Source of the DNA: Hyunsoonleella aestuarii
GTDB taxonomy: Bacteria; Bacteroidota; Bacteroidia; Flavobacteriales; Flavobacteriaceae
Assembly: GCF_006148925.1 (NCBI RefSeq)
Contig: NZ_VAWB01000001.1
Span: 1,454,001 to 1,518,000 of the forward strand
Reading direction: 5' to 3'
DNA length: 64,000 bases
Part shown: positions 25,511 to 58,399 of the stretch, in pieces
Numbering within the stretch: position 1 is the stretch's first letter
How the letters are laid out: every line of letters starts with the position of its first letter
Notes under the pieces: generated by a model
Databases searched by the model: none
What the model was told of the DNA's origin: nothing
Seen by the model: only the letters and a program-made list of their open reading frames with translations
Translations under genes and position numbers: made by a program

Positions 25511-26764
25511 TTAAAGCGCAAAAGCTTCTTTTACTTTATCAACATAATCTAACTTTTCCCAAGTGAATAGCTCAACTTCTAGGGTTTTGCTTTCGCCATT
25601 AGGTTGGCTAAATGTTTTAGAAACTGTTCGGTTAGTTCTTCCCATGTGCCCATAAGCAGCTGTTTCGCTATACATTGGAGAACGTAATTTTAAACGTTCC
25701 TCGATCGCAAATGGTCGCATATCGAAAATTTTAGAAACTTTTTCAGCAATTTCGCCATCGGTCATATTAAACGAGCAAGTACCATAAGTATCTACAAAAA
25801 TACCCATAGGTTCTACAACGCCAATGGCATAACTAACTTGCACCAAAATCTCATCGGCAACACCTGCAGCAACCAAGTTTTTAGCAATATGGCGCGTGGC
25901 ATAAGCCGCACTTCTGTCTACTTTACTTGGGTCTTTACCAGAGAAAGCTCCACCGCCATGGGCGCCTTTACCACCGTAAGTATCTACAATAATTTTACGT
26001 CCTGTTAAACCGGTATCGCCATGCGGCCCACCAATTACAAACTTGCCAGTTGGGTTGATATGATATTTTATGTCATTATTAAACAATACCTTTATGCTCT
26101 TTGGAAGTTTAGCAACTACCCTTGGTATTAAAATATCAACAATATCCTTTCTTATTTTAGCAAGCATGGTGTCATCATCTGCAAAATCATCATGCTGTGT
26201 AGAGACCACTATGGCGTCGATACGTTGTGGGATATTATCATCACTATATTCAATAGTTACTTGGCTTTTAGAGTCTGGTCTTAAGTAAGTAATATCTTTA
26301 TTCTCTCGACGTAACTCGGCAAGTTCTATTAAAATGCGATGCGATAAATCTAAGGCAAGCGGCATAAAGTTTTCGGTTTCATTAGTCGCGTAACCAAACA
26401 TCATTCCTTGGTCGCCAGCACCTTGCTCTTCTTTGCTGCCACGATCTACACCTTGATTAATATCTTCAGATTGCTCATGTATTGCCGAAAATACACCACA
26501 AGAATTACCATCGAACATATATTCTCCTTTGGTATAACCAATTTTGTTAATAGTGTCTCTTGCAATTTTTTGAACATCCAAATATGTATGTGATTTTACT
26601 TCTCCTGCAAGAACCACTTGACCTGTTGTAACCAAAGTTTCGCAAGCTACTTTAGAATCGGCGTCGAAAGCCAAAAAATTATCTATCAAAGCGTCACTAA
26701 TTTGATCTGCTACTTTATCTGGGTGTCCTTCAGAAACACTTTCCGACGTAAATAAATAAGCCAT
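25511..26764 (-). CDS. metK: S-adenosylmethionine synthetase (methionine adenosyltransferase)
   Basis: A 417-residue enzyme making SAM from methionine and ATP. The N-terminus has [20 protein letters not shown], with [11 protein letters not shown] (signature 1 hexapeptide region) and [19 protein letters not shown] (glycine-rich loop and KVDRS). Length is slightly above the E. coli form (384), as usual in Bacteroidota. A SAM-II-like riboswitch lies in its 5' leader, so the product of the enzyme likely represses it. Confidence 0.97.
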
Positions 26765-26814
26765 TTATCTAATATTTAATTTTTGAGATTTGACGAGAGC
26801 GTCTCAGGAAGTTT

Positions 26815-26868
26815 ACACTGCCTTTAGCATTTTTTCTTGAGGTTGCAATCAGTCAAATCTGTCCTCTT
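26815..26868 (-). promoter_or_regulatory. SAM-II-like riboswitch upstream of metK
   Basis: Read on the minus strand: P1 5' arm GAGG (26866-26863), the loop core GATTTGACTGATTGCAA, P1 3' arm CCTC (26842-26839), an A-rich linker, then TGCTAAAGG (ending at 26821). The SAM-II consensus I know has P1, GATTTAACCGTATTGCAA in the loop, then an A-rich linker and GCTAAAAAGG forming the H-type pseudoknot; order and spacing agree. The element lies about 50 nt before the metK start codon and after a good -7 element. Between it and the start codon, GAGACG and GACGAGAG-like sequences could form the regulatory hairpin. Confidence 0.78.
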
Positions 26869-26881
26869 TTATTAATCTTGG

Positions 26882-48283: not shown

Positions 48284-48311
48284 ATGTACGGTTGTAACCG
48301 TGCATTTTTTA
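48284..48311 (+). terminator. Rho-independent terminator of the sugar cluster
   Basis: ATGTACGGTT (48284-48293) pairs with AACCGTGCAT (48296-48305), one G-T pair, tight loop, T-run to 48310. It lies 45 bp after the last DUF1080 gene. From here to 48403 I see nothing else. Confidence 0.82.
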
Positions 48312-48403: not shown

Positions 48404-48432
48404 TTGTTTATAAAAATAAAATCTTAGTTTTA
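48404..48432 (+). promoter_or_regulatory. Candidate promoter of the arginine/proline operon
   Basis: TTG (48404-48406), 18 bp, then TAGTTTTA (48425-48432), one base off TAnnTTTG. The predicted start of transcription is right at or just before ATG 48437 of an Arg-rich short frame. Confidence 0.45.
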
Positions 48433-48436
48433 TACC

Positions 48437-48508
48437 ATGAAAAATTTAAAAAATAAAATACGTTGCACTACACCCGGTTTACCCGTGCGCTTATGCCGCC
48501 GCTTCTAA
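48437..48508 (+). CDS. Putative arginine leader peptide 1 (23 codons)
   Basis: ATG 48437 to TAA 48508. The peptide starts MKNLKNKIRCTTPGLP and ends VRLCRRF, with Arg codons at positions 9, 18, 21 and 22, using CGC three times, a rare sight in this AT-rich genome. It lies right after a promoter candidate and in the same leader region as another Arg-rich frame. Position and content suggest an arginine-sensing leader. No matching terminator was found, so the mechanism is open. Confidence 0.55.
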   Translation: MKNLKNKIRCTTPGLPVRLCRRF

Positions 48509-48589
48509 TGCAGTGATTAGTAAACCAATAAACGTAATTTTAATTTTTCAAAAGTGTCCAAAATTTTTATCATAGCAGTTCAGAATAAA

Positions 48590-48607
48590 GTTAATTTAAT
48601 AATTAAC
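48590..48607. promoter_or_regulatory. Perfect AT-rich palindrome in the arginine leader region
   Basis: GTTAATT (48590-48596), TAAT, AATTAAC (48601-48607), 13 nt before the second Arg-rich frame. It may be an operator or a weak RNA hairpin. It is not an obvious ARG box of the E. coli or Bacillus type. Confidence 0.4.
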
Positions 48608-48619
48608 CAAGGTTTTATT

Positions 48620-48646
48620 ATGCGTCGTTTTCCTCGTCGCCCGTGA
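48620..48646 (+). CDS. Putative arginine leader peptide 2 (MRRFPRRP)
   Basis: ATG 48620 to TGA 48646 encodes eight residues, four of them Arg in two pairs (CGT CGT, CGT CGC). It sits 88 bp before the first gene of an arginine biosynthesis operon. A cluster of codons for the end product just upstream of its operon is what ribosome-mediated attenuation uses. The following 88 bp hold no clear terminator, so control may be at translation or RNA decay. Confidence 0.65.
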   Translation: MRRFPRRP

Positions 48647-48734
48647 GGGTATGTATTTTGTTTTAGAATTAGGTGCGTCCAATTCGGTTTCAAAGAAAAA
48701 ATTTAAATTATTGATATTCAATTATTAGGAAAAG

Positions 48735-49358
48735 ATGAAGGTTGTAATAGCCGATAAAATACATATTAAATACGCAGAAGTCATTTGCGATACCATTGCT
48801 GAGTCCGCTCAAGTAAGAGGAACTGGAATCGCTAGGCGTACGGCAGAATATATCGCTACTAAGATTGAGAATGGCAATGCTGTTATTGCCTTAGATGGTG
48901 ACATTTTTGCAGGGTTCTGTTATATAGAAAAATGGGGCCACGGTAAGTTCGTCGCAAATTCAGGACTTATAGTTCATCCTAATTATAGAGGGAAAGGACT
49001 TGCGAAAAAAATTAAACACAAAGTTTTTGAACATTCTAAAAATAAATTCCCTAATGCTAAAGTGTTTAGCATAACCACAGGGCTTCCTGTGATGAAAATG
49101 AATAGTGACTTAGGTTATAAACCTGTCACTTTTTCCGAGTTAACAGATGATCAGACTTTCTGGGATGGTTGTCAAACATGCAAAAACTATGATGTTTTAA
49201 CAAGAACAAATAGAAAAATGTGTTTGTGCACAGGCATGTTGTACGATCCTAAAAAAAGTGGTACAGACCAAGATAAGGCTAAGCCAGTTAAAGAAAAAGT
49301 ATTTAAAAGATTGAAAAGAATAAAGCAAGCATTGTTTTTGAGAAAAGATAAAAAGTAA
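48735..49358 (+). CDS. GNAT-family N-acyltransferase, first gene of the arginine operon
   Basis: A 207-residue GNAT-fold protein. The acyl-CoA-binding motif A is VHPNYRGKGLAKKIKHKVFE near residue 85, after beta-strand FAGFCYIEKWGHGKFVANSG. A C-terminal Cys-containing part (DGCQTCKNYDVL, KMCLCTGMLYD) and a Lys/Arg-rich tail follow. In this operon no argA, argJ or argO-like gene is present, so this is the natural candidate for the missing first step (N-acyl-glutamate synthase), though the substrate is not shown by sequence. argG starts 4 bp after its stop. Confidence 0.85.
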   Translation: MKVVIADKIHIKYAEVICDTIAESAQVRGTGIARRTAEYIATKIENGNAVIALDGDIFAGFCYIEKWGHGKFVANSGLIVHPNYRGKGLAKKIKHKVFEHSKNKFPNAKVFSITTGLPVMKMNSDLGYKPVTFSELTDDQTFWDGCQTCKNYDVLTRTNRKMCLCTGMLYDPKKSGTDQDKAKPVKEKVFKRLKRIKQALFLRKDKK

Positions 49359-49362
49359 TAAA

Positions 49363-50538
49363 ATGAAAAAGTTAGTAATTGCATATAGTGGCGGATTAGA
49401 CACCTCATATTGTGCCGTAAGTTTATCAAAAGAATATGACGTACATGCAGTAAGTGTCAATACAGGAGGGTTCAGCGATGAGGAAGTTAAGCATATAGAA
49501 AGTAATGCCTATAAAATGGGAGTTACGACGTATAAGAATATTGATGCCGTAGCCACTTTTTATCAAAAAGTAGTAAAGTACTTAATATTTGGTAATGTTT
49601 TAAAAAACAGTACCTATCCACTATCGGTAAGTGCAGAGCGCATAATACAAGCTATCGAAATCATAGAATATGCAAAAAGTATTGATGCAGAATATATTGC
49701 TCACGGTAGTACAGGCGCGGGTAATGATCAGGTACGTTTTGATATGATTTTTCAAACATTAGCTCCTAATATTAAGATTATTACTCCAATAAGAGATCAA
49801 AAACTAACAAGACAGGAAGAAATAGATTATTTAAAATCTGAGGGAATTAATATGCCTTGGGAAAAATCGAAATACTCCGTTAATAAAGGCCTTTGGGGAA
49901 CTAGTGTTGGTGGGGTAGAAACGTTAGAATCTGAAAAACCTTTACCAAATGAAGCTTATCCTTCACAACTAGAAAAGGAAGGTGAAGAAAAAGCCACTTT
50001 AACATTTAAGAATGGTGAATTTGTAGCGCTTAATGGTGAGACAAATGCTCCAGAAATTAATATTGAAAAATTGAATGATATAGCGTCTGGTTATGCTATA
50101 GGTAGAGATATCCATGTTGGTGATACCATAGTTGGTACAAAGGGAAGAGTAGGTTTTGAAGCTGCTGCTGCTTTAATAACTGTAAAAGCACATCATTTAT
50201 TGGAGAAGCATACACTTACTAAATGGCAATTACAACACAAAGAATATTTATCTAGTTTCTACGGCATGCACTTGCATGAAGGTCAGTATCTAGATCCAGT
50301 AATGAGGGATATTGAAGCTTTTTTACAAAGTTCCCAAAATATGGTTTCCGGAAATGTGATGGTAACTTTAAAACCGTATCATTTCTCTTTAGATGGAATT
50401 ATTTCAGATCATGATTTAATGTCCAGTAAGTTTAGTACTTATGGTGAAGAAAATAAAGCTTGGACTGCAGAGGATGCTAAAGGGTTTATTAAAATCCTTG
50501 GAAATCAAAATAAAATATATCAACAGGTAAATTCTTAG
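49363..50538 (+). CDS. argG: Argininosuccinate synthase
   Basis: A 391-residue ATP-pyrophosphatase that joins citrulline and aspartate. The P-loop variant is LVIAYSGGLDTSYCAVSL at the N-terminus, and HGSTGAGNDQVRF, KYSVNKGLWGTSVGGVE and IHVGDTIVGTKGRVGFE are recognisable family regions. Length is typical. Second gene of the operon, although it acts near the end of the pathway. Confidence 0.96.
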   Translation: MKKLVIAYSGGLDTSYCAVSLSKEYDVHAVSVNTGGFSDEEVKHIESNAYKMGVTTYKNIDAVATFYQKVVKYLIFGNVLKNSTYPLSVSAERIIQAIEIIEYAKSIDAEYIAHGSTGAGNDQVRFDMIFQTLAPNIKIITPIRDQKLTRQEEIDYLKSEGINMPWEKSKYSVNKGLWGTSVGGVETLESEKPLPNEAYPSQLEKEGEEKATLTFKNGEFVALNGETNAPEINIEKLNDIASGYAIGRDIHVGDTIVGTKGRVGFEAAAALITVKAHHLLEKHTLTKWQLQHKEYLSSFYGMHLHEGQYLDPVMRDIEAFLQSSQNMVSGNVMVTLKPYHFSLDGIISDHDLMSSKFSTYGEENKAWTAEDAKGFIKILGNQNKIYQQVNS

Positions 50539-50541
50539 AGC

Positions 50542-51519
50542 ATGATAAAAGTAGGAATTATTGGTGGAGCCGGTTACACTGCAGGAGAATTAATTAGAAT
50601 GTTAATTAATCATCCAGAAACTAAAATCGATTTTGTTTTTAGCACAAGTAATGCTGGAAATAACATTAGCAAAGTGCATCAAGACTTGGTTGGGAGTTTA
50701 GATTTGAAATTTACAGATACTGTTAATCCAGATGTAGATGTATTATTTTTATGTTTAGGCCATGGAAACTCTGTGAAGTTCTTATCAGCTAACACCTTTT
50801 CTGAAAACACTAAAATAATAGATTTAGGAAACGACTTTAGACTGGAAGCTGACAAGACTTTTGAAGGTAAAACCTTTATATATGGTTTGCCAGAATTAAA
50901 TAAAGATGCGATAGTGAATACCAAATATATCGCTAACCCAGGATGTTTTGCTACAGCCATTCAATTAGGATTATTACCTTTAGCATATGCTGGTTTAATT
51001 AAGAAAGATGTTCATATTAATGCGGTTACAGGTGCAACTGGAGCAGGGACCTCTTTGTCTGCAACAACGCATTTTACTTGGAGAGATAATAACTTTTCAT
51101 ATTACAAACCATTTACGCATCAGCATTTGGGTGAAATAAATCAATCTGTTAATCAATTGCAATCTGATTTTTCTTCAGAAATTATTTTTATGCCAAATAG
51201 AGGTAATTTTTCTAGAGGGATTTTTGCAACAATTTATACAGATTTCGATGGTTCAATTGAAGAAGCTAAAACTATTTACAAATCGTTTTATAAGAATGCT
51301 AAATTCACCTTTGTTTCAGATGATTTTTTACATATGAAGCAGGTTGTAAACACTAACAAATGTTTAGTGCATTTGCATAAGCACAACGGAAAATTGTTAA
51401 TTACGAGTACTATTGATAATTTACTGAAAGGAGCTTCTGGACAAGCAATTCAAAATATGAATTTAATGTTTGATTTAGAAGAAACAACCGGATTAGGGTT
51501 AAAGGCGACATACTTTTAA
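50542..51519 (+). CDS. argC: N-acyl-gamma-glutamyl-phosphate reductase
   Basis: A 325-residue NADPH-dependent semialdehyde dehydrogenase-type enzyme. Rossmann motif VGIIGGAGYTAGELIRMLI, the catalytic Cys in YIANPGCFATAIQLGLLP near residue 135, then VTGATGAGTSLSATTHF and IIFMPNRGNFSRGIFATI. It reduces the phosphate made by ArgB; whether the acyl group is acetyl or succinyl is discussed under argF'. It starts 3 bp after argG. Confidence 0.95.
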   Translation: MIKVGIIGGAGYTAGELIRMLINHPETKIDFVFSTSNAGNNISKVHQDLVGSLDLKFTDTVNPDVDVLFLCLGHGNSVKFLSANTFSENTKIIDLGNDFRLEADKTFEGKTFIYGLPELNKDAIVNTKYIANPGCFATAIQLGLLPLAYAGLIKKDVHINAVTGATGAGTSLSATTHFTWRDNNFSYYKPFTHQHLGEINQSVNQLQSDFSSEIIFMPNRGNFSRGIFATIYTDFDGSIEEAKTIYKSFYKNAKFTFVSDDFLHMKQVVNTNKCLVHLHKHNGKLLITSTIDNLLKGASGQAIQNMNLMFDLEETTGLGLKATYF

Positions 51520-51567
51520 ATTATTGAACAAATACTTTAAATTCAAAAAAAGTAAAACAAAGAAATT

Positions 51568-52362
51568 ATGAAAATAGCGATTATAGGAACAGGGAATTTA
51601 GGCAGTTCGATTGCAAAAGGTTTAATCAATAATAAATCCTTTACATCATTATATCTTAGTGATAGATATCCCAAGGCTGTAAAGCGTTTTGAAGAAGTTG
51701 AAAACGTTTCAATTACTAATGACAATGTTTTGGCGGTTGAAAATTCCGATGTCGTGATTTTTGCCTTACAGCCAAAACATATTGATGGTGTATTGGAAAC
51801 TGTGAAATCGAAAATTTCGGATAGTCATATAATTATGTCTGTTGCCGCTGGTGTTGACATTGCTAGAATTGAAAATATTTTAGGTGCTGATAAAAACATC
51901 ATTAGAGTTATGCCAAATACGGCAATTTCTATTGGGAAGTCAATGACCTGTATTGCAGCAAACAGTGCAGGCCAAGATAAAGTGCCATTGGCAGAAGAAA
52001 TTTTCAACCAATTAGGAACCACAATGATAATCCCTGAAGATTTAGTTCAGGCCGCTACCGTAATTTGTGCCAGCGGAATTGCATTTTGGATGCGCTTGGT
52101 TCGTGCTACAACCCAAGGAGCGATTCAGTTAGGGTTTGAAGCTGAAGAAGCCCATGAATTAGCAGTACAAACCTGTTTTGGCTCGGCAAGTTTATTAATA
52201 GAATCGAGGAGACACCCAGAGCAAGAAATTGATAGAGTTACGACACCAAGTGGTTGTACTATCGAAGGTTTAAATGAGATGGAGCACCAAGGATTAAGTT
52301 CGGCTTTAATTCAAGGAATAGTAGCTTCGTTTGAAAAAATAAATCAATTAAAGAAGAGTTAA
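51568..52362 (+). CDS. proC: Pyrroline-5-carboxylate reductase
   Basis: A 264-residue NAD(P)H enzyme for the last step of proline synthesis. N-terminal Rossmann motif KIAIIGTGNLGSSIAKGLI; the substrate domain has RVMPNTAISIGKSMTCI, the conserved ASGIAFWMRLVRATTQGA and the family signature VTTPSGCTIEGLNEMEHQG. A proline gene between argC and argD indicates joint arginine/proline control. Confidence 0.95.
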   Translation: MKIAIIGTGNLGSSIAKGLINNKSFTSLYLSDRYPKAVKRFEEVENVSITNDNVLAVENSDVVIFALQPKHIDGVLETVKSKISDSHIIMSVAAGVDIARIENILGADKNIIRVMPNTAISIGKSMTCIAANSAGQDKVPLAEEIFNQLGTTMIIPEDLVQAATVICASGIAFWMRLVRATTQGAIQLGFEAEEAHELAVQTCFGSASLLIESRRHPEQEIDRVTTPSGCTIEGLNEMEHQGLSSALIQGIVASFEKINQLKKS

Positions 52363-52363
52363 A

Positions 52364-53518
52364 ATGCCATTATTTGACGTTTATCCATTATACAATGTGA
52401 CCCCAGTTTCAGGAAAAGGTATCCATGTTTACGACGATAAAGGTGATGAATATTTAGACCTTTATGGCGGTCATGCGGTAATTTCTATTGGGCATGCTCA
52501 TCCAAATTATGTAAAGGCGGTTACCAATCAGGTTGAAACCTTAGGGTTTTATTCTAATGCCATTCAGAATCCGTTACAAAAGCAGTTGGCTGATAAGTTA
52601 GAAGGTTTATCGGGATGTAAAGATTACGAATTGTTTTTATGTAATTCGGGTGCCGAAGCGAACGAGAACGCACTAAAGTTAGCATCATTTAAAACGGAAA
52701 AAAAACGTGTTGTTGCCTTTTCTAAAGGCTTTCACGGACGTACCTCTGCAGCTGTCGCGGCCACAGATAATAAAAATATTATAGCACCTATTAATGCACA
52801 ACAGGCGGTAACTATTTTACCGTTAAACGATATTGAAGGAGTTAAAACCGAACTCGAAAAAGGCGATGTTTGTGCTGTTATTGTTGAGTTTATTCAAGGG
52901 ATTGGAGGTTTAGACCAAGGGACTACGGCATTCTTTGAGGAAGTTGATAAGCTTTGTAAAGCAAACAATACCATGTTTATTGCAGACGAAATTCAATGCG
53001 GGTATGCACGTTCCGGAAAATTCTTTGCATTTCAGCATTATAATGTTACTCCAGATATTATTTCTTTAGCTAAAGGAATGGGAAATGGTTTTCCAATTGG
53101 AGGGATTTTAATTCATCCAAGTATAGAGTCTAAGTATGGGATGCTAGGAACCACTTTTGGAGGAAACCATTTAGCCTGTGCTGCTGGACTAGCGGTTTTA
53201 AATACTATTGAAGAAGAAAATTTATTGGCTAATGTGAATATCATGTCCGAGTATTTCTTTTCTATTGCAAGAACGATTCCTCAGATAAAGAATATAAAAG
53301 GAAGAGGTTTAATGCTAGGCTTAGAATTCGACTTTGAAGTAGGGGACCTTCGCAAAGATTTAATTTATAATTATAAAATATTTACTGGCGGTGCAGCGAA
53401 TAAGAAGTTACTACGAATTTTACCACCATTAAATATTGAAAAACAACATATAGGTCAATTTTTTAAGGCCTTGAAAAAGGCTTTGGTAGATGTTGAAAGT
53501 AAAACATTAGAAGTTTAG
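52364..53518 (+). CDS. argD: N-acylornithine aminotransferase
   Basis: A 384-residue class III PLP aminotransferase. Visible are LDLYGGHAVISIGHAHP, FLCNSGAEANENALKLA, the FHGRTSAAVAATD segment, the PLP Asp in IADEIQCGYARSGKFFAFQ and the PLP Lys in SLAKGMGNGFPIGGIL. It makes N-acylornithine from the semialdehyde; since proA and proB flank it, it may also accept ornithine. It starts 1 bp after the end of proC. Confidence 0.94.
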   Translation: MPLFDVYPLYNVTPVSGKGIHVYDDKGDEYLDLYGGHAVISIGHAHPNYVKAVTNQVETLGFYSNAIQNPLQKQLADKLEGLSGCKDYELFLCNSGAEANENALKLASFKTEKKRVVAFSKGFHGRTSAAVAATDNKNIIAPINAQQAVTILPLNDIEGVKTELEKGDVCAVIVEFIQGIGGLDQGTTAFFEEVDKLCKANNTMFIADEIQCGYARSGKFFAFQHYNVTPDIISLAKGMGNGFPIGGILIHPSIESKYGMLGTTFGGNHLACAAGLAVLNTIEEENLLANVNIMSEYFFSIARTIPQIKNIKGRGLMLGLEFDFEVGDLRKDLIYNYKIFTGGAANKKLLRILPPLNIEKQHIGQFFKALKKALVDVESKTLEV

Positions 53519-53523
53519 ACAAG

Positions 53524-54717
53524 ATGAACACGCTATTATCCATAGAAAAGAGAAATGCTGTTTTATTGAAAATGGCAGTGTTGTTAGAGCAAGAACGACA
53601 GGCTTTAATTGATATTAATAAAGTTGATTTAGATAGTTATACTGGTGATGATATTTCTATGTTCGATCGTTTGAAAGTTGACAATGCTAAAGTTGATGAA
53701 ATGATTAAGGCGGTTACACATTTAGCATCTCAAGTAGATCCCGTTGGTGTAGAACGTTTTAGCTTTAAACACAAGAATGGGATGCAGGTTTACAATAAAA
53801 CGGCGTCTTTTGGAACGGTGCTGATTATTTACGAATCTCGTCCAGATGTCACTGTTGAGGCAGCAGGAATTGCATTTAAATCAGGTAATAAGATTTTACT
53901 AAAAGGTGGCAAAGAGTCCTTACGTTCTAATTTGAAAATCGTGGAGCTTTGGCATCAAGCTCTTAAAGAACAAGACACTTCAACCGATTGGGTTGAGTAC
54001 TTACAATTCAATAGAACAGAAACACAGGCTTTTTTAGAAAAGCCATCACAGAAAGTTGATTTAATTGTACCGCGTGGAGGTGAACGATTAATTGATTTTG
54101 TGAAAGAACATGCTACATGTCCAGTTATTATTAGCGGACGTGGTAATAATTTTGTCTACGTTCATAAGGAAGCTGATTTAAATATTGCTCTTGAGGTTAT
54201 CATGAACGGGAAGTCTAAAATTTCAGCGTGTAATGCAGTCGATAAAGTATTGATAGATAAGAATCTTTCAAATAAAGATGAATTTGTAACAAATTTAATT
54301 TCAAAATTAAAAGCATCTAACATTGAAGTTTTGGGAGACGAAAGCATTTCAAAAGAAAATGGTATTGAAGCTATCACGTCAGATGCTATTTGGTATGAAG
54401 AGTTTTTAGATTATAAAATATTAATTGGTGAAATTGCGTCAAATCAAGATACAATTGCCATGATTAATAAATACTCTGGTGGGCATTCATCATCTATCAT
54501 TACAACAAATGAAGCAGAAGCACAATTATTTATGGAAAACGTAGATACGGCTGCAGTATATCATAATGCTTCTACGCGTTTTACTGATGGAGGACAGTTA
54601 GGTTTGGGAGGTGAATTAGCCATAAGTACAGATAAATTACACCAACGTGGGCCAATTGGTTTACAGCATTTGGTAACAAATAAGTGGTACGTTCATGGTA
54701 ACGGACAAATAAGATAG
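53524..54717 (+). CDS. proA: Glutamate-5-semialdehyde dehydrogenase (gamma-glutamyl phosphate reductase)
   Basis: A 397-residue aldehyde dehydrogenase-like enzyme. Visible are LIIYESRPDVTVEAAGIAFK, KGGKESLRSN, LIVPRGGERLIDFVKEHA, the catalytic Cys region SKISACNAVDKVLI and the ending GGELAISTDKLHQRGPIGLQ. It reduces the product of ProB. proB begins right at the following base. Confidence 0.95.
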   Translation: MNTLLSIEKRNAVLLKMAVLLEQERQALIDINKVDLDSYTGDDISMFDRLKVDNAKVDEMIKAVTHLASQVDPVGVERFSFKHKNGMQVYNKTASFGTVLIIYESRPDVTVEAAGIAFKSGNKILLKGGKESLRSNLKIVELWHQALKEQDTSTDWVEYLQFNRTETQAFLEKPSQKVDLIVPRGGERLIDFVKEHATCPVIISGRGNNFVYVHKEADLNIALEVIMNGKSKISACNAVDKVLIDKNLSNKDEFVTNLISKLKASNIEVLGDESISKENGIEAITSDAIWYEEFLDYKILIGEIASNQDTIAMINKYSGGHSSSIITTNEAEAQLFMENVDTAAVYHNASTRFTDGGQLGLGGELAISTDKLHQRGPIGLQHLVTNKWYVHGNGQIR

Positions 54718-55482
54718 ATGCAAAAAAAGAAACGCATATTACTAAAAGTAGGTTCGAATACCTTAACTAAAGAAACCGATAATATCTCAAGAGGTAAAAT
54801 CGAAGATATAGCAAATCAAATTGCACAGCTTCAAGATACTTGCGAATTTATTATAGTAAGTTCTGGTGCCATTGCCGTTGCTAAACAATTTGTAAAATTG
54901 GAAAGCAAACGAAAACCTATTTTTGTAAAGCAAGCTTTAGCTTCCATTGGTCAGCCTCATTTGATAAGAATTTATCAAGAGATCTTTAGGGAATACGGAT
55001 TGTTAAGTTCACAGTGTTTATTGTCTTATTCCGATTTTGAAAAGAAGGAAAGCAGAACTAATATAATGAATACAGTTAATGTATTGGTTAATAATAATTA
55101 CATACCTATTATTAATGAAAATGATACGGTGGCAACCGATGAGATTAAGTTTGGAGACAATGATAAATTAGCTGCATTAACAGCATCACTTTTAGATGTG
55201 GATTTGTGTGTTATTGCGACCAATACTAATGGGATTTACACCAAAGCATCTATAGAGAACGGAACTCCTGAAACCATAGGTTTGGTTGAAGATTTTGAAG
55301 CTTTGAGAACCGAGGTTGTAAGCTCAAAATCCTCTCATGGTAGTGGCGGGATGCAAAGTAAAATAGAAGCGGCCGAAGTAACTAAAAAGGCAAATATCGA
55401 AACCTGGATTGTAAACGGATTGGAAGACAATTTCCTAGTAAATGCTATAGAAGATAAAGTATCGTTCACAAAAATAAAATGA
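54718..55482 (+). CDS. proB: Glutamate 5-kinase, kinase domain only
   Basis: A 254-residue amino-acid kinase: LLKVGSNTLTK, IIVSSGAIAVAKQF, the catalytic INENDTVATDEIKFGDND and GSGGMQSKIEAAEVTKKANI. It ends after the kinase domain; the C-terminal PUA domain of the 367-residue E. coli enzyme is absent. Loss of PUA is common in this lineage and may loosen proline feedback. The start codon directly follows the proA stop codon. Confidence 0.93.
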   Translation: MQKKKRILLKVGSNTLTKETDNISRGKIEDIANQIAQLQDTCEFIIVSSGAIAVAKQFVKLESKRKPIFVKQALASIGQPHLIRIYQEIFREYGLLSSQCLLSYSDFEKKESRTNIMNTVNVLVNNNYIPIINENDTVATDEIKFGDNDKLAALTASLLDVDLCVIATNTNGIYTKASIENGTPETIGLVEDFEALRTEVVSSKSSHGSGGMQSKIEAAEVTKKANIETWIVNGLEDNFLVNAIEDKVSFTKIK

Positions 55483-55539
55483 TTTGTATGGTCGGGCTAG
55501 ATTTATTTTAGCAATCTTATTTAAAAAAGAAACATAATA

Positions 55540-56478
55540 ATGAAACATTATACATCCATAGAAGATATAGAAGATATTAATTCATGGATTGCCGAGGCAA
55601 AAGCGTTAAAAGGTAGTCCTTTAAAACATGTCGAACTTGGAAAAAACAAGACCATAGGTTTGTTGTTTTTTAATTCCAGTTTGCGCACACGTTTAAGCAC
55701 ACAAAAGGCTGCCTTAAATTTGGGTATGAATCCTATCGTTATGAATGTTTCTGGTGATGCATGGGGTATTGAGTTTGGTGATGGAACGGTTATGAATGGA
55801 AATAAAGCAGAGCATATAAAAGAGGCAGCGGCAGTTGTTTCTCAATATTGTGATATCATAGCCGTTAGAGCGTTTCCCACGTTAACGGATAAAGCAAAAG
55901 ATGAAAGTGAGCAAGTAATGAATGCATTTAAAAAATATGCCTCAGTTCCCATTGTGAATATGGAAAGTGCTACAGGGCATCCATTACAAGGTTTAACCGA
56001 TGCGCTTACAATTGCAGAACATGCAAAAGTTGATCGACCAAAAGTAGTATTGAGTTGGGCACCACATATTAAAGCGTTACCACATGCCGTAGCGAATAGC
56101 TTTATTCAAGCGATGCAAAAAATGGATGTTGAGTTTGTTATTGCAAACCCAGAAGGTTACGATTTAAACCGTGAAATCACAAAGGAGACGCCAGTTTATC
56201 ATAACCAAGAAGAAGCTTTTAAAGATGCCGATTTTGTCTACACTAAAAACTGGAGTTCTTATGAAGATTATGGAAAAGTAAATAATACCGACCCTAGTTG
56301 GATGATAACTAAAGATAAAATTGGAAAAGCTAAATTCATGCATTGCCTGCCTGTAAGACGAAATGTTGTTGTTGAAGATGCCGTTTTAGACACAGATAGT
56401 GCTTTGGTTATAGAGCAAGCAAATAACCGAACTTATGCCGCTCAATTGGTGCTTAAAAAGATATTAGAAAACTTATAA
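55540..56478 (+). CDS. argF': N-succinylornithine (or N-acetylornithine) carbamoyltransferase, argF' type
   Basis: A 312-residue transcarbamylase of the argF' branch: the carbamoyl-phosphate motif is FFNSSLRTRLSTQKAALNLG (residues 43-62), then the conserved ATGHPLQGLTDALTI and MHCLPVRRNVVVEDAV. Residue 90, in the loop NGNKAEHIKEAA, is Ala. In the characterised Bacteroides fragilis enzyme this is Pro (succinylornithine-specific) and in Xanthomonas it is Glu (acetylornithine-specific); Glu-to-Ala change is reported to switch to succinylornithine. So N-succinylornithine is the predicted substrate. Confidence 0.92.
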   Translation: MKHYTSIEDIEDINSWIAEAKALKGSPLKHVELGKNKTIGLLFFNSSLRTRLSTQKAALNLGMNPIVMNVSGDAWGIEFGDGTVMNGNKAEHIKEAAAVVSQYCDIIAVRAFPTLTDKAKDESEQVMNAFKKYASVPIVNMESATGHPLQGLTDALTIAEHAKVDRPKVVLSWAPHIKALPHAVANSFIQAMQKMDVEFVIANPEGYDLNREITKETPVYHNQEEAFKDADFVYTKNWSSYEDYGKVNNTDPSWMITKDKIGKAKFMHCLPVRRNVVVEDAVLDTDSALVIEQANNRTYAAQLVLKKILENL

Positions 56479-56488
56479 AATTTTCGTC

Positions 56489-56544
56489 ATTCTGAACTTG
56501 ATTCAGAATCTTATAATGTCAGGTAGAGTGCAGCCGAGACTTAA
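56489..56544. repeat. Dispersed hairpin repeat between argF' and argB
   Basis: ATTCTGAA (56489-56496), 5-nt loop, TTCAGAAT (56502-56509): a perfect 8-bp stem of the CATTCTGAACTTG type that I recall as a repeat in many Bacteroidota genomes. It is followed by GTCAGGTAGAGTGCAGCCGA (56518-56537), which resembles a second common flavobacterial repeat type (GTCAGGT...GCAGTCGA). So the gap looks like a composite of two dispersed repeats. Confidence 0.55.
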
Positions 56545-56554
56545 AATTAAACAA

Positions 56555-57331
56555 ATGGAAAAATTATCCATCGTTAAAATAGGAGGAAATATTATTGAAG
56601 ATCAAGCGTCTCTTGATGTGTTTCTTAAATTATTTTCTAATCTTGAAGGTAAGAAAATTTTAGTCCATGGTGGCGGAAAGCGAGCAACACATATCGCTTC
56701 TAAATTAGGGATTGAGTCTAAAATGATAAACGGTCGGCGCATTACAGATGCCGCCACTTTAGAAGTCATTACCATGGTCTATGGTGGTTTGGTTAATAAA
56801 AATGTAGTTGCAAAATTACAAGCTTTAAATACGAATGCCATTGGATTAACAGGAGCAGATGCTAATAGTATAAAGTCCAATAAAAGACCCGTAAAAGATA
56901 TTGATTTCGGTTTTGTTGGCGATGTAAAAGAAGTTTCCCATACTGCAATTGATAAATTAATACAAGCCAATTTTACACCCGTATTTTGTGCAATTACGCA
57001 TGATGGGGAAGGGCAGTTGTTAAACACTAATGCCGATACTATTACCTCACAAGTAGCCGTTGGAATGAGTAAGTTATATGAAACTTCAATCTATTACTGT
57101 TTTGAGCTAATTGGTGTTTTAAGAGATATAAATGACAAAGATTCGGTAGTCAAGCATATTGATTCTAATACCTATCAAGATTTGTTAGAAAAAGGTATTA
57201 TTGCAGATGGTATGCTGCCAAAACTAGAAAATTGTTTTGATGCCTTGTATGGAGGAGTACATGAAATAAACATGGGAAACACCTCGATGTTAACTCAGGA
57301 AAATGATAATTTCACAAAAATAACCTTGTAA
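56555..57331 (+). CDS. argB: N-acylglutamate kinase
   Basis: From ATG 56555 a 258-residue amino-acid kinase: LSIVKIGGNIIEDQASLDVF, ILVHGGGKRATHIASKLG, the segment INGRRITDAATLEVITMVYG, and later LLNTNADTITSQVAVGMSK. It phosphorylates the N-acylglutamate in step 2 of arginine synthesis. An in-frame ATG 57 bp upstream lies inside the dispersed repeat, so the shorter form is preferred. The argE start immediately follows its stop. Confidence 0.94.
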   Translation: MEKLSIVKIGGNIIEDQASLDVFLKLFSNLEGKKILVHGGGKRATHIASKLGIESKMINGRRITDAATLEVITMVYGGLVNKNVVAKLQALNTNAIGLTGADANSIKSNKRPVKDIDFGFVGDVKEVSHTAIDKLIQANFTPVFCAITHDGEGQLLNTNADTITSQVAVGMSKLYETSIYYCFELIGVLRDINDKDSVVKHIDSNTYQDLLEKGIIADGMLPKLENCFDALYGGVHEINMGNTSMLTQENDNFTKITL

Positions 57332-58399
57332 ATGGGACTAGAGAAATTAACATCAGATGCTATTCAGCTCTTAAAAAAGCTTATCGAAACCCAGTCTTTT
57401 TCTTCGGAAGAAGATTTAACAGCTGGACATATTGAAGCTTGGTTTAAAGAATACAATATAAATTTTAAGCGTACAAAAAATAACGTTTGGGCAGTCAATA
57501 AACATTTTGAAGCCGGCAAGCCAAATTTGTTGTTAAACTCGCATCATGATACGGTAAAACCCAATTCAGCGTATACTAAAGACCCATTTAAAGCCATCGT
57601 GGAAGATGGCAAATTATTTGGGTTAGGCAGTAATGACGCCGGAGGTTGTTTGGTGTCTTTAATCGCAACTTTCACCCATTATTACAATTACGAAAATTTA
57701 AAATATAATTTGGTAATTGTCGCTTCCGCGGAAGAAGAAAGTAGCGGCCCAAAAGGATTAAATAGTATGTTGTCTATTATTCCCGAGGTAGATGTTGCCA
57801 TTGTAGGAGAGCCAACATTAATGAATTTAGCCGTAGCCGAAAAAGGTTTAGTAGTTTTTGATGCAGTTATTGAGGGCACTCCTAGCCATGCAGCACATCC
57901 AAACGATAATAATGCGATTTATAACAGTATTGAAGCCCTAAAATGGTTTAAAGATTTAAAGTTCGAAAAAGGTTCTGATGCTCTTGGCGACGTCAAGTTA
58001 ACGGTTACACAGGTTAATGCTGGATCACAGCATAATGTGGTTCCCGGTCATGTAGATTTGGTTATTGATGTTCGTGTAAACGATGCTTATAGCAATACAG
58101 AAATCGCTGAAATTTTACAAAAGAAGGCTCCAGTTACAAGTATTACGCCACGTAGTTTACGTTTAAATTCATCTTCAATTCCTATGGAACACGATTTGGT
58201 AAAAGCAGGACTCGCTATGGGAAGAACAAGCTATGGGTCGCCAACATTGTCAGATCAAGCGGTATTATCATGTCCGAGTTTAAAACTAGGACCCGGAGAT
58301 AGTACAAGGTCGCACTCGGCAGATGAATTTATATATATACACGAAATAGAAGAAGGTATAAAAATTTATATTGAATTGTTAAATCGAGTAATCGTATAA
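57332..58399 (+). CDS. argE: M20-family N-acylornithine/N-acylcitrulline deacylase
   Basis: A 355-residue zinc metallopeptidase-type deacylase. Metal ligands appear in LLLNSHHDTVKP (His-x-Asp), GLGSNDAGGC (bridging Asp), VASAEEESSGPKGLN (catalytic Glu plus ligand Glu), VAIVGEPT and, near the C-terminus, SHSADEFIYIHEIE. In pathways with argF' it removes the acyl group from N-acylcitrulline rather than N-acylornithine. Transcript continues into a 77-bp inverted repeat. Confidence 0.92.
   Translation: MGLEKLTSDAIQLLKKLIETQSFSSEEDLTAGHIEAWFKEYNINFKRTKNNVWAVNKHFEAGKPNLLLNSHHDTVKPNSAYTKDPFKAIVEDGKLFGLGSNDAGGCLVSLIATFTHYYNYENLKYNLVIVASAEEESSGPKGLNSMLSIIPEVDVAIVGEPTLMNLAVAEKGLVVFDAVIEGTPSHAAHPNDNNAIYNSIEALKWFKDLKFEKGSDALGDVKLTVTQVNAGSQHNVVPGHVDLVIDVRVNDAYSNTEIAEILQKKAPVTSITPRSLRLNSSSIPMEHDLVKAGLAMGRTSYGSPTLSDQAVLSCPSLKLGPGDSTRSHSADEFIYIHEIEEGIKIYIELLNRVIV

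Follow-up and report, generated by a model that had tools for sequence, protein, structure and literature searches.

A putative arginine-sensing leader, with one or two Arg-rich leader peptides, ahead of the arginine/proline operon of Flavobacteriaceae

The arginine/proline operon of Hyunsoonleella aestuarii is preceded by two successive Arg-rich short frames, ORF1 and ORF2, the second of which ends in a small hairpin (P1) that is followed by a second, covarying hairpin (P2). We consider it probable, from the comparison of sequences, that this region is a cis-acting leader of the operon, which would sense arginine through the ribosomes on its leader peptides and would replace ArgR. An arginine-responsive leader had been proposed in a first-pass annotation of the same DNA, and comparison supports that proposal: the Arg-rich ends are conserved, they co-occur with the operon, and no ArgR was found in the family.

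The window, i.e. the whole stretch of 64,000 nucleotides that was analysed, comes from the forward strand of H. aestuarii assembly GCF_006148925.1 (contig NZ_VAWB01000001.1, positions 1,454,001-1,518,000). The features of the locus, in window coordinates, are the following.

48425..48432, forward strand: promoter-like -7 element TAGTTTTA of the Bacteroidota TAnnTTTG type, 12 nt upstream of the ORF1 ATG
48437..48508, forward strand: ORF1, leader peptide 1, MKNLKNKIRCTTPGLPVRLCRRF, with like frames in relatives
48440..48465, forward strand: 5' arm of PL, a candidate long-range helix seen in the window fold, formed by the first ORF1 codons
48531..48549, forward strand: 3' arm of PL, AACGTAATTTTAATTTTTC, directly before the ORF2 start and also promoter-like (TAnnTTTA)
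48554..48646, forward strand: ORF2, leader peptide 2, VSKIFIIAVQNKVNLIINQGFIMRRFPRRP, about 30 codons from GTG, ending MRRFPRRP-stop, with an internal ATG at 48623
48638..48650, forward strand: P1 hairpin, CGCCC-GTGA-GGGT, with the ORF2 stop codon (48644-48646) in its loop
48666..48685, forward strand: P2 hairpin, GAATT-A-GG-TGCGT-CC-AATTC, with the loop GGTGNGTCC and a covarying stem
48735..49358, forward strand: first operon gene, GNAT-type N-acetyltransferase, matching an N-acetyltransferase model below its cut-off
49363..58399, forward strand: argG, argC, proC, argD, proA, proB, N-acetylornithine carbamoyltransferase, argB and ArgE/DapE-type deacylase, named by NCBIfam matches, several of them below cut-offs

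The first-pass annotation had described two separate frames of 23 and 8 codons. The 23-codon frame at 48437-48508 was confirmed, as were the letters MRRFPRRP at 48623-48646, the four Arg codons claimed for each, the AT-rich surroundings of the leader and the operon ATG at 48735, 88 bases past the stop of the second frame. The 8-codon frame is present, but it is merely the tail of the longer frame running from the GTG at 48554 to the TGA at 48646; the original observation was thus real and partly misread. Neither P1, with the ORF2 stop codon in its loop, nor P2 appeared in that annotation. The GNAT acetyltransferase gene at 48735-49358 reached no NCBIfam cut-off, and its position in the operon suggests an uncharacterised N-acetylglutamate synthase. 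Upstream of the leader, on the forward strand, a hairpin ACGGTTGTAACCGT followed by GCATTTTTT (48288-48310), which the terminator scanner did not list, looks by eye like the terminator of the preceding gene. Elsewhere in the window, a SAM-II riboswitch match (26814-26872, reverse strand, 63.3 bits) lies about 50 bases ahead of a 417-aa ORF (25511-26764, reverse strand) that by eye resembles S-adenosylmethionine synthetase.

Conservation was assessed in two sets of loci. A scan with the first-gene protein found 124 relatives, 80 of which were kept, mostly labelled as Flavobacteriaceae genera; together with the window they make up the 81 near loci, 8 of them unparsed. The covariance model R1 was built from alignment A2, which holds 37 of the 72 distinct elements parsed from these near loci (alignment A1 holds 64 of them; alignments A3 and A4 comprise 69 of 81 distinct sequences and 79 of 90 loci, respectively). 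R1 matched 125 of 199 Flavobacteriaceae genomes, in 124 of 198 genera. The family-wide set, with about one genome per genus (two from the genus of the window), comprises 90 of the 125 matched genomes and is biased to stronger matches, 35 having been left out; 30 of its loci came from the model search output, 60 were retrieved separately, and 86 were parsed.

The element accompanies the operon across the family. The first gene was found in 130 of the 199 Flavobacteriaceae genomes, the element in 125 and both in 121, and in 84 of the 86 parsed loci the first gene lies downstream of the element. The element without the first gene was seen in G084 and G152 and as weak matches in G023 and G055. The former two are the cases of L097, in which argG follows the element directly without the first gene, and L163, in which the element is followed, by eye, by an acetyltransferase other than the first gene and, after it, by an argG-like gene. 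In one genome (L221, 704-1297) a different acetyltransferase, by eye, replaces the first gene before an argG-like gene. Nine genomes carry the first gene without a model match (G033, G065, G069, G081, G127, G140, G177, G180 and G181). Despite this, L211 (G140) has ORF1, the leader of L209 (G081) ends in RRFPFRPLWV, and L212 (G177) combines the leader end RFRRPLGV with an element-like stretch. In genus g127 (possibly Flavobacterium; L210, L225 and L226), a different conserved frame, MNKxSLHITSLSRTN..EVR.., with rare CGG Arg codons was recognised by eye before the first gene, and the P1/P2 element is absent. A second model, R2, gave 28 matches in 395 Bacteroidia genomes, of which 19 were weak (E 2.6e-4 to 8.1e-3; one, L198, in Flavobacteriaceae). 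Since neither GNAT nor argG was found in the retrieved flanks of these 19 weak matches, the element as modelled seems to be confined to Flavobacteriaceae. The weak match L198, in G389, resembles by eye a CRISPR array with the repeat GTTGTGGTTTGATTAAAGATTAGA.

Comparison across Flavobacteriaceae, which the first-pass annotation had proposed as one check, bore out the conserved Arg-rich ends. In many near loci, a frame ending RRxFPRRP-stop lies about 115 nt before the first gene. The long ORF2 was found in 79 of the 81 near loci, starting with GTG (47), TTG (23) or ATG (9), and measured 30 or 31 codons in 67 of the 79; L017 lacks the ORF2 end. All 86 parsed loci of the family-wide set have an in-frame start 42-111 nt upstream. 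The remaining two frames, in which 13 and 14 loci have one, were used as control because the range allowed for the long start is wider than that for the short one (24 vs 5 codons). The short ORF2 start is present in 30 of the 86 loci, vs 23 and 2 in the other frames. ORF2 ends in Arg-Arg-Pro-stop in 79 of the 86 parsed loci, and the stop, which may be TAA, TGA or TAG, falls exactly two codons past CGC in 83. An Arg-rich ATG frame, defined as one 12-50 codons long in which 3 or more of the final 10 residues are Arg, was present in 76 of the 86 loci. Dinucleotide shuffling, done 50 times, gave a mean of 2.3 such loci and at most 6, and the reverse strand also gave 6.

Codon usage points to constraint on the peptide end of ORF2. 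Codon -4 encodes Pro in 52 of 79 near loci (CCT 19, CCA 16, CCG 11, CCC 6) and codon -3 Arg in 61 of 79 (CGT 51, CGC 6, CGA 4); the peptide end thus appears to be under constraint, with the Pro codons at -4 varying synonymously. Among the leader Arg codons of the near set, CGC and CGT account for 339 of 394 in ORF1 and 245 of 297 in ORF2, an unusual choice, given that the Arg codon shares in the long ORFs of the window are 45% for AGA, 23% for CGT and 8% for CGC. In the N-terminal part of ORF2, differences are not in excess at third positions (16901, 17821 and 15412 at codon positions 1, 2 and 3, respectively), and towards the end of ORF2 the excess is no more than slight (6817, 7512 and 8180); the residues upstream of the Arg run vary widely between lineages. 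The Arg codons at the ORF2 end double as the 5' strand of P1, and RNA constraint could partly underlie the conserved CGC and CCG codons.

ORF1-like frames were identified by script in 78 of the 81 near loci (absent from L046, L057 and L068), and in many of these loci a peptide resembling MKNLKNKIRCxxPGLPxRxRRRF lies about 300 nt before the first gene. In the family-wide set ORF1 is present in 44 of the 86 parsed loci by a loose rule, some calls of which, e.g. L137 and L155, are doubtful by eye. Because the other loci carry the second unit only, the ORF2 unit is the core of the leader and ORF1 a lineage-specific upstream addition. The earlier suggestion of two sensing units in series therefore holds as anatomy for those 44 loci and fails for the remaining ones; where both are present, each unit would presumably sense arginine. 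Promoter-like motifs follow the same division. Of the 44 loci that have ORF1, 34 carry TAnnTTT[GA] 12 or 13 nt upstream of its start, and of the 42 that lack it, 20 carry the motif 15 nt upstream of the start of ORF2; TAnnTTTG is described as a promoter consensus in the consulted part of PMC9723704. This spacing indicates that in both forms the mRNA 5' end probably lies at or near the start codon of the first leader, ORF1 being an added unit.

One further structure may connect the two frames. The first codons of ORF1 can pair with the spacer directly before ORF2 (PL), and over 64 distinct ORF1 arms the native duplexes averaged -10.8 vs -9.2 kcal/mol for swapped arms, with none of 1000 swaps as low (relatedness uncorrected). 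For the ORF1 of a given organism, however, its own spacer ranked only 18th of 64 (median). The spacer also resembles a promoter element, located 18 to 20 nt upstream of ORF2 in up to 19 of 44 loci. Gating of ORF2 access through ORF1 translation is plausible.

The single-sequence fold of the entire leader was no better than shuffles (z -0.11), and covariance folding, also proposed in the first-pass annotation, revealed strong covariation at the P2 stem. In 79 sequences, 99.7% of the P2 cells were paired, with 57 compensatory cells vs 15.3 in shuffles; both sides change at all 5 outer pairs, and slid registers were far worse. The alignment used had been fitted to the model, and the stem count was therefore repeated independently of it: contiguous stems averaged 6.3 pairs between native arms, though just 1 and 2 pairs in two of the 86 loci, whereas swapping of arms lowered the average to 3.0, the highest value among 500 swaps being 3.8. 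The P2 consensus in the alignment is GAAC..AGGTGNGTCC..GTTC. Its loop GGTGNGTCC was found in 73 of the 81 near loci (altered or lost in L017, L028, L035, L045, L048, L049, L051 and L070) and in 2 of 4 unparsed loci (altered in L116 and L177); it is present in 86 of 86 parsed loci, but the parsing pattern itself includes the loop. Within the genome of the window the loop motif had 8 exact matches (control 1), the other 7 being coding-like by eye.

P1, with the consensus CGCCC-NNNN-GGGT in the alignment beyond ORF2 and a stability of -6.1 kcal/mol, was paired in 99.7% of cells and is almost invariant among the parsed loci. In the unparsed loci L167 and L179, CGCAC..GTGCG replaces CGCCC..GGGTG, a compensatory change noted by eye, and P2 is kept. 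The stop lies outside the P1 loop in 3 of the 86 parsed loci, in L167 and L179 (by eye) and in Polaribacter-type loci that read on to RPLG. By eye, the leader frame of L167 and L179 (421-500 in each) passes through P1 to more Arg codons. When folds were compared for the RNA without a ribosome, P1 plus P2 was the more stable, at -10.3 kcal/mol for the window and between -13.9 and -15.8 kcal/mol for six relatives. A switch of CGCCC between P1 and the P2 loop, proposed by RNAalifold, was rejected, since the nested CGCC:GGUG pairing gives -1.0 vs -10.3 kcal/mol for P1 plus P2, and since L167 and L179 retain the P1 hairpin without that complementarity. Rfam gave no gathering-level match at the locus, and the relaxed search returned 11 sub-gathering matches there (E 0.09 to 8.5), none of them convincing.

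ArgR is the explanation of arginine control in many studied bacteria. The ArgR model PF02863 had no match in any of the 199 Flavobacteriaceae genomes, that of the window included. In the control search, 8 of 14 named control genomes were positive, a Bacteroides among them, and 12 of 295 Bacteroidia genomes had a match. The first gene was found in 99 of these 295 genomes, 9 of them Flavobacteriaceae, and 81 of the 90 first-gene genomes of other families, several of which share one genus, were examined. By the rule given above for Arg-rich ATG frames (12-50 codons, 3 or more Arg among the final 10 residues), 40 of the 81 have such a leader before the gene, whereas 100 shuffles gave a mean of 3.2 and at most 8, and the reverse strand gave 5; the other 41 fail the rule. 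The leader ends vary by lineage (PFFPRR, RRRVFIPRV, VRRPYMPRA, RRPFGRRPARV). In seven other-family genomes a strong ArgR match lies 56-128 bases upstream of the first gene of the operon; in these seven, neither the ArgR gene nor the first gene was found to have an Arg-rich leader ahead of it. The resulting contrast, 0 of 7 ArgR-adjacent genomes vs 40 of 74 others, gives a Fisher P of 0.012, or 0.057 if one match that is both weak and distant is also taken as ArgR; both values overstate independence, because five of the seven genomes belong to one family.

RNA structure around the other-family leaders was also considered. In 41 leaders of other families (one of them, L214, is from Flavobacteriaceae), the loops of downstream hairpins scored 12.2 against their own leader end and 11.0 against swapped ends, and none of 500 swaps reached the native score. 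Hairpins around the stop codon of 58 leaders, some few of which are from Flavobacteriaceae, scored 7.2 vs 3.6 with shuffled flanks (maximum 4.9 of 200), other offsets reaching 5.7. Both signals are suggestive only, because folding itself chose the hairpins. At the Rfam gathering level no match was found in 20 loci (19 of other families plus L214). In another family, L248 has, about 85-150 bases before GNAT, an 11-base stretch at the Arg-stop end of the leader that could pair without mismatch with the hairpin that follows (TCGAGCTTGAT/ATCAAGCTCGA), which makes it a candidate for alternative pairing.

One important question is how such a leader would act on the operon. ORF2 is a short frame rich in codons for the product of the pathway, and RNA structure overlaps its end: P1 comprises the last codons and mostly the stop, and P2, which covaries, comes next. 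We suppose that RNA synthesis begins at or near the first leader AUG and that ribosomes trail the polymerase. With charged Arg-tRNA, the ribosome would complete ORF2 and depart, P1 would be free to fold beside P2, and expression of the operon would remain low. When Arg-tRNA is scarce, a ribosome stalled in the Arg run would mask the 5' strand of P1, leaving P2 alone, and the operon would be expressed. A ribosome located at the terminal Arg codons or at the stop would cover P1, which would be freed by its departure. The direction proposed here, with higher expression on starvation, is the one that would be expected for an operon of biosynthesis. In the lineage of the window, ORF1 would sense arginine likewise, and since its first codons can pair (PL) with the spacer before ORF2, access to ORF2 may depend on whether ORF1 is being translated.

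With regard to the output, the first-pass annotation had seen no clear intrinsic terminator, and this still stands. The single scanner match, a weak one at 48631-48649 (7 pairs, including 3 G-C pairs, with 0.3 matches expected), overlaps P1, and relatives inspected by eye have not retained it. No hairpin with a U-run was seen by eye directly after P1 or P2 in 40 loci, and neither the scan of the window nor these loci yielded a mutually exclusive pair of U-tract terminator and antiterminator. The operon start lies 49 nt beyond P2 in the window, and no sequestration of the start that explains the output was found. The leader was not classed as a classical intrinsic-terminator attenuator. Because no conserved U-tract terminator was found, Rho-dependent termination or RNA decay are favoured as the likeliest outputs.

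Leaders of the trpL and hisL type are the classical amino-acid leader-peptide attenuators. Like them, the present leader has a short frame before a biosynthetic operon, codons for the end product and hairpins that overlap the leader end; unlike them, it has no conserved U-tract terminator that we found, its stop codon lies within a small hairpin, a second hairpin has a nearly invariant loop, and half of the set has tandem leaders, apparently for the same amino acid. By description, it resembles Salmonella orf34-speF, which, as outlined in the consulted part of PMC6386406, has a 34-codon leader that senses arginine by consecutive Arg codons, in which stop-codon pausing and a hairpin just past the stop matter and the outputs include Rho and RNA decay; unlike the present case, orf34-speF controls ornithine decarboxylase and not arginine synthesis. 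The mgtM/mgtP frames of Salmonella mgtCBR likewise form two serial short ORFs in one leader, but according to the consulted text of PMC3641672 they respond to different signals (ATP and proline), whereas here both frames are Arg-rich. The leader peptide of Staphylococcus aureus rbfL also senses arginine; there, as described in the consulted part of PMC13009471, a ribosome that pauses on the leader obstructs the ribosome-binding site that follows, and starvation therefore represses, unlike in the response proposed here. For the same family, PMC9723704 reports in its consulted part clues to leader-peptide attenuation and structured 5' regions before amino-acid operons of Flavobacterium psychrophilum, naming pheA and hisG among conserved 5' elements and no arginine leader; it also describes Bacteroidota as having different promoters and mostly no Shine-Dalgarno. 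Short ORFs resembling leader peptides are mentioned for Bacteroides in the consulted part of PMC7366714. The earlier statement that no described system of this kind was known in Bacteroidota should therefore be softened with respect to attenuation, for which these clues exist, although no arginine leader is named in the parts consulted. A search of the open-licence literature (most subscription papers and all supplements lay outside its scope) found no arginine leader in Bacteroidota among the papers listed. Within this searchable literature the arginine leader, the P1/P2 element, the tandem form and the pattern of ArgR appear to be new; the leader-peptide principle itself is not new to the family.

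Conservation of the kind seen here, with a nearly invariant P2 loop, a covarying P2 stem and a nearly invariant P1, is typical of aptamers, and P1 and P2 might together form a riboswitch that binds arginine or a precursor, the peptide-like frame being a by-product of RNA conservation. This is distinctly unlikely, since ORF2 is open in one frame only, the Pro codon at -4 varies synonymously, and the stop may be TAA, TGA or TAG. Moreover, Arg-rich frames persist in other families with no match to the element model near the operon, and some relatives in which P1 and the P2 loop are altered retain Arg-rich ends. A different reading keeps the peptide but not the codons as the sensor: the nascent chain would arrest at its Pro-stop end in response to a metabolite, as opposed to Arg-tRNA charging. 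TnaC stalls the ribosome at a Pro-stop end, and hence the Arg-Arg-Pro-stop of 79 of 86 loci, with its fixed stop position, counts for this possibility. Arrest peptides usually retain key residues, however, and the residues before the Arg run vary widely; in addition, many leaders in other families have a last residue other than Pro, with ends such as PRV, IRR and PRA. We therefore regard nascent-chain arrest as unlikely, albeit less so than the riboswitch.

Translation of the leader might also aid expression of the operon in general, by reinitiation or by protection from Rho, without any sensing of arginine. Leader frames are common according to the consulted part of PMC4833913, and the Arg codons might merely serve the sequence of P1. 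Yet Arg is enriched in ORF1, which has no P1, as well as in ORF2 and in the differently sequenced leaders of other families, and an operon start about 50 nt past P2 is far for reinitiation, so that this explanation is very improbable.

Arginine sensing by ribosomes on the leader peptides is thus the preferred reading. Somewhat short of an even chance, in our judgement, is its extension to a Bacteroidia-wide class of ArgR-replacing Arg leader peptides, in which the Arg run and the stop would lie in one hairpin, with a second hairpin downstream and no intrinsic terminator, and in which part of the Flavobacteriaceae would have added a serial leader whose opening codons gate translation of the first. 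The P1/P2 element, which has no Rfam match, is specific enough to serve as a marker of the arginine operons of Flavobacteriaceae, and for this family, in which no ArgR was detected, the Arg leader offers a concrete, testable replacement.
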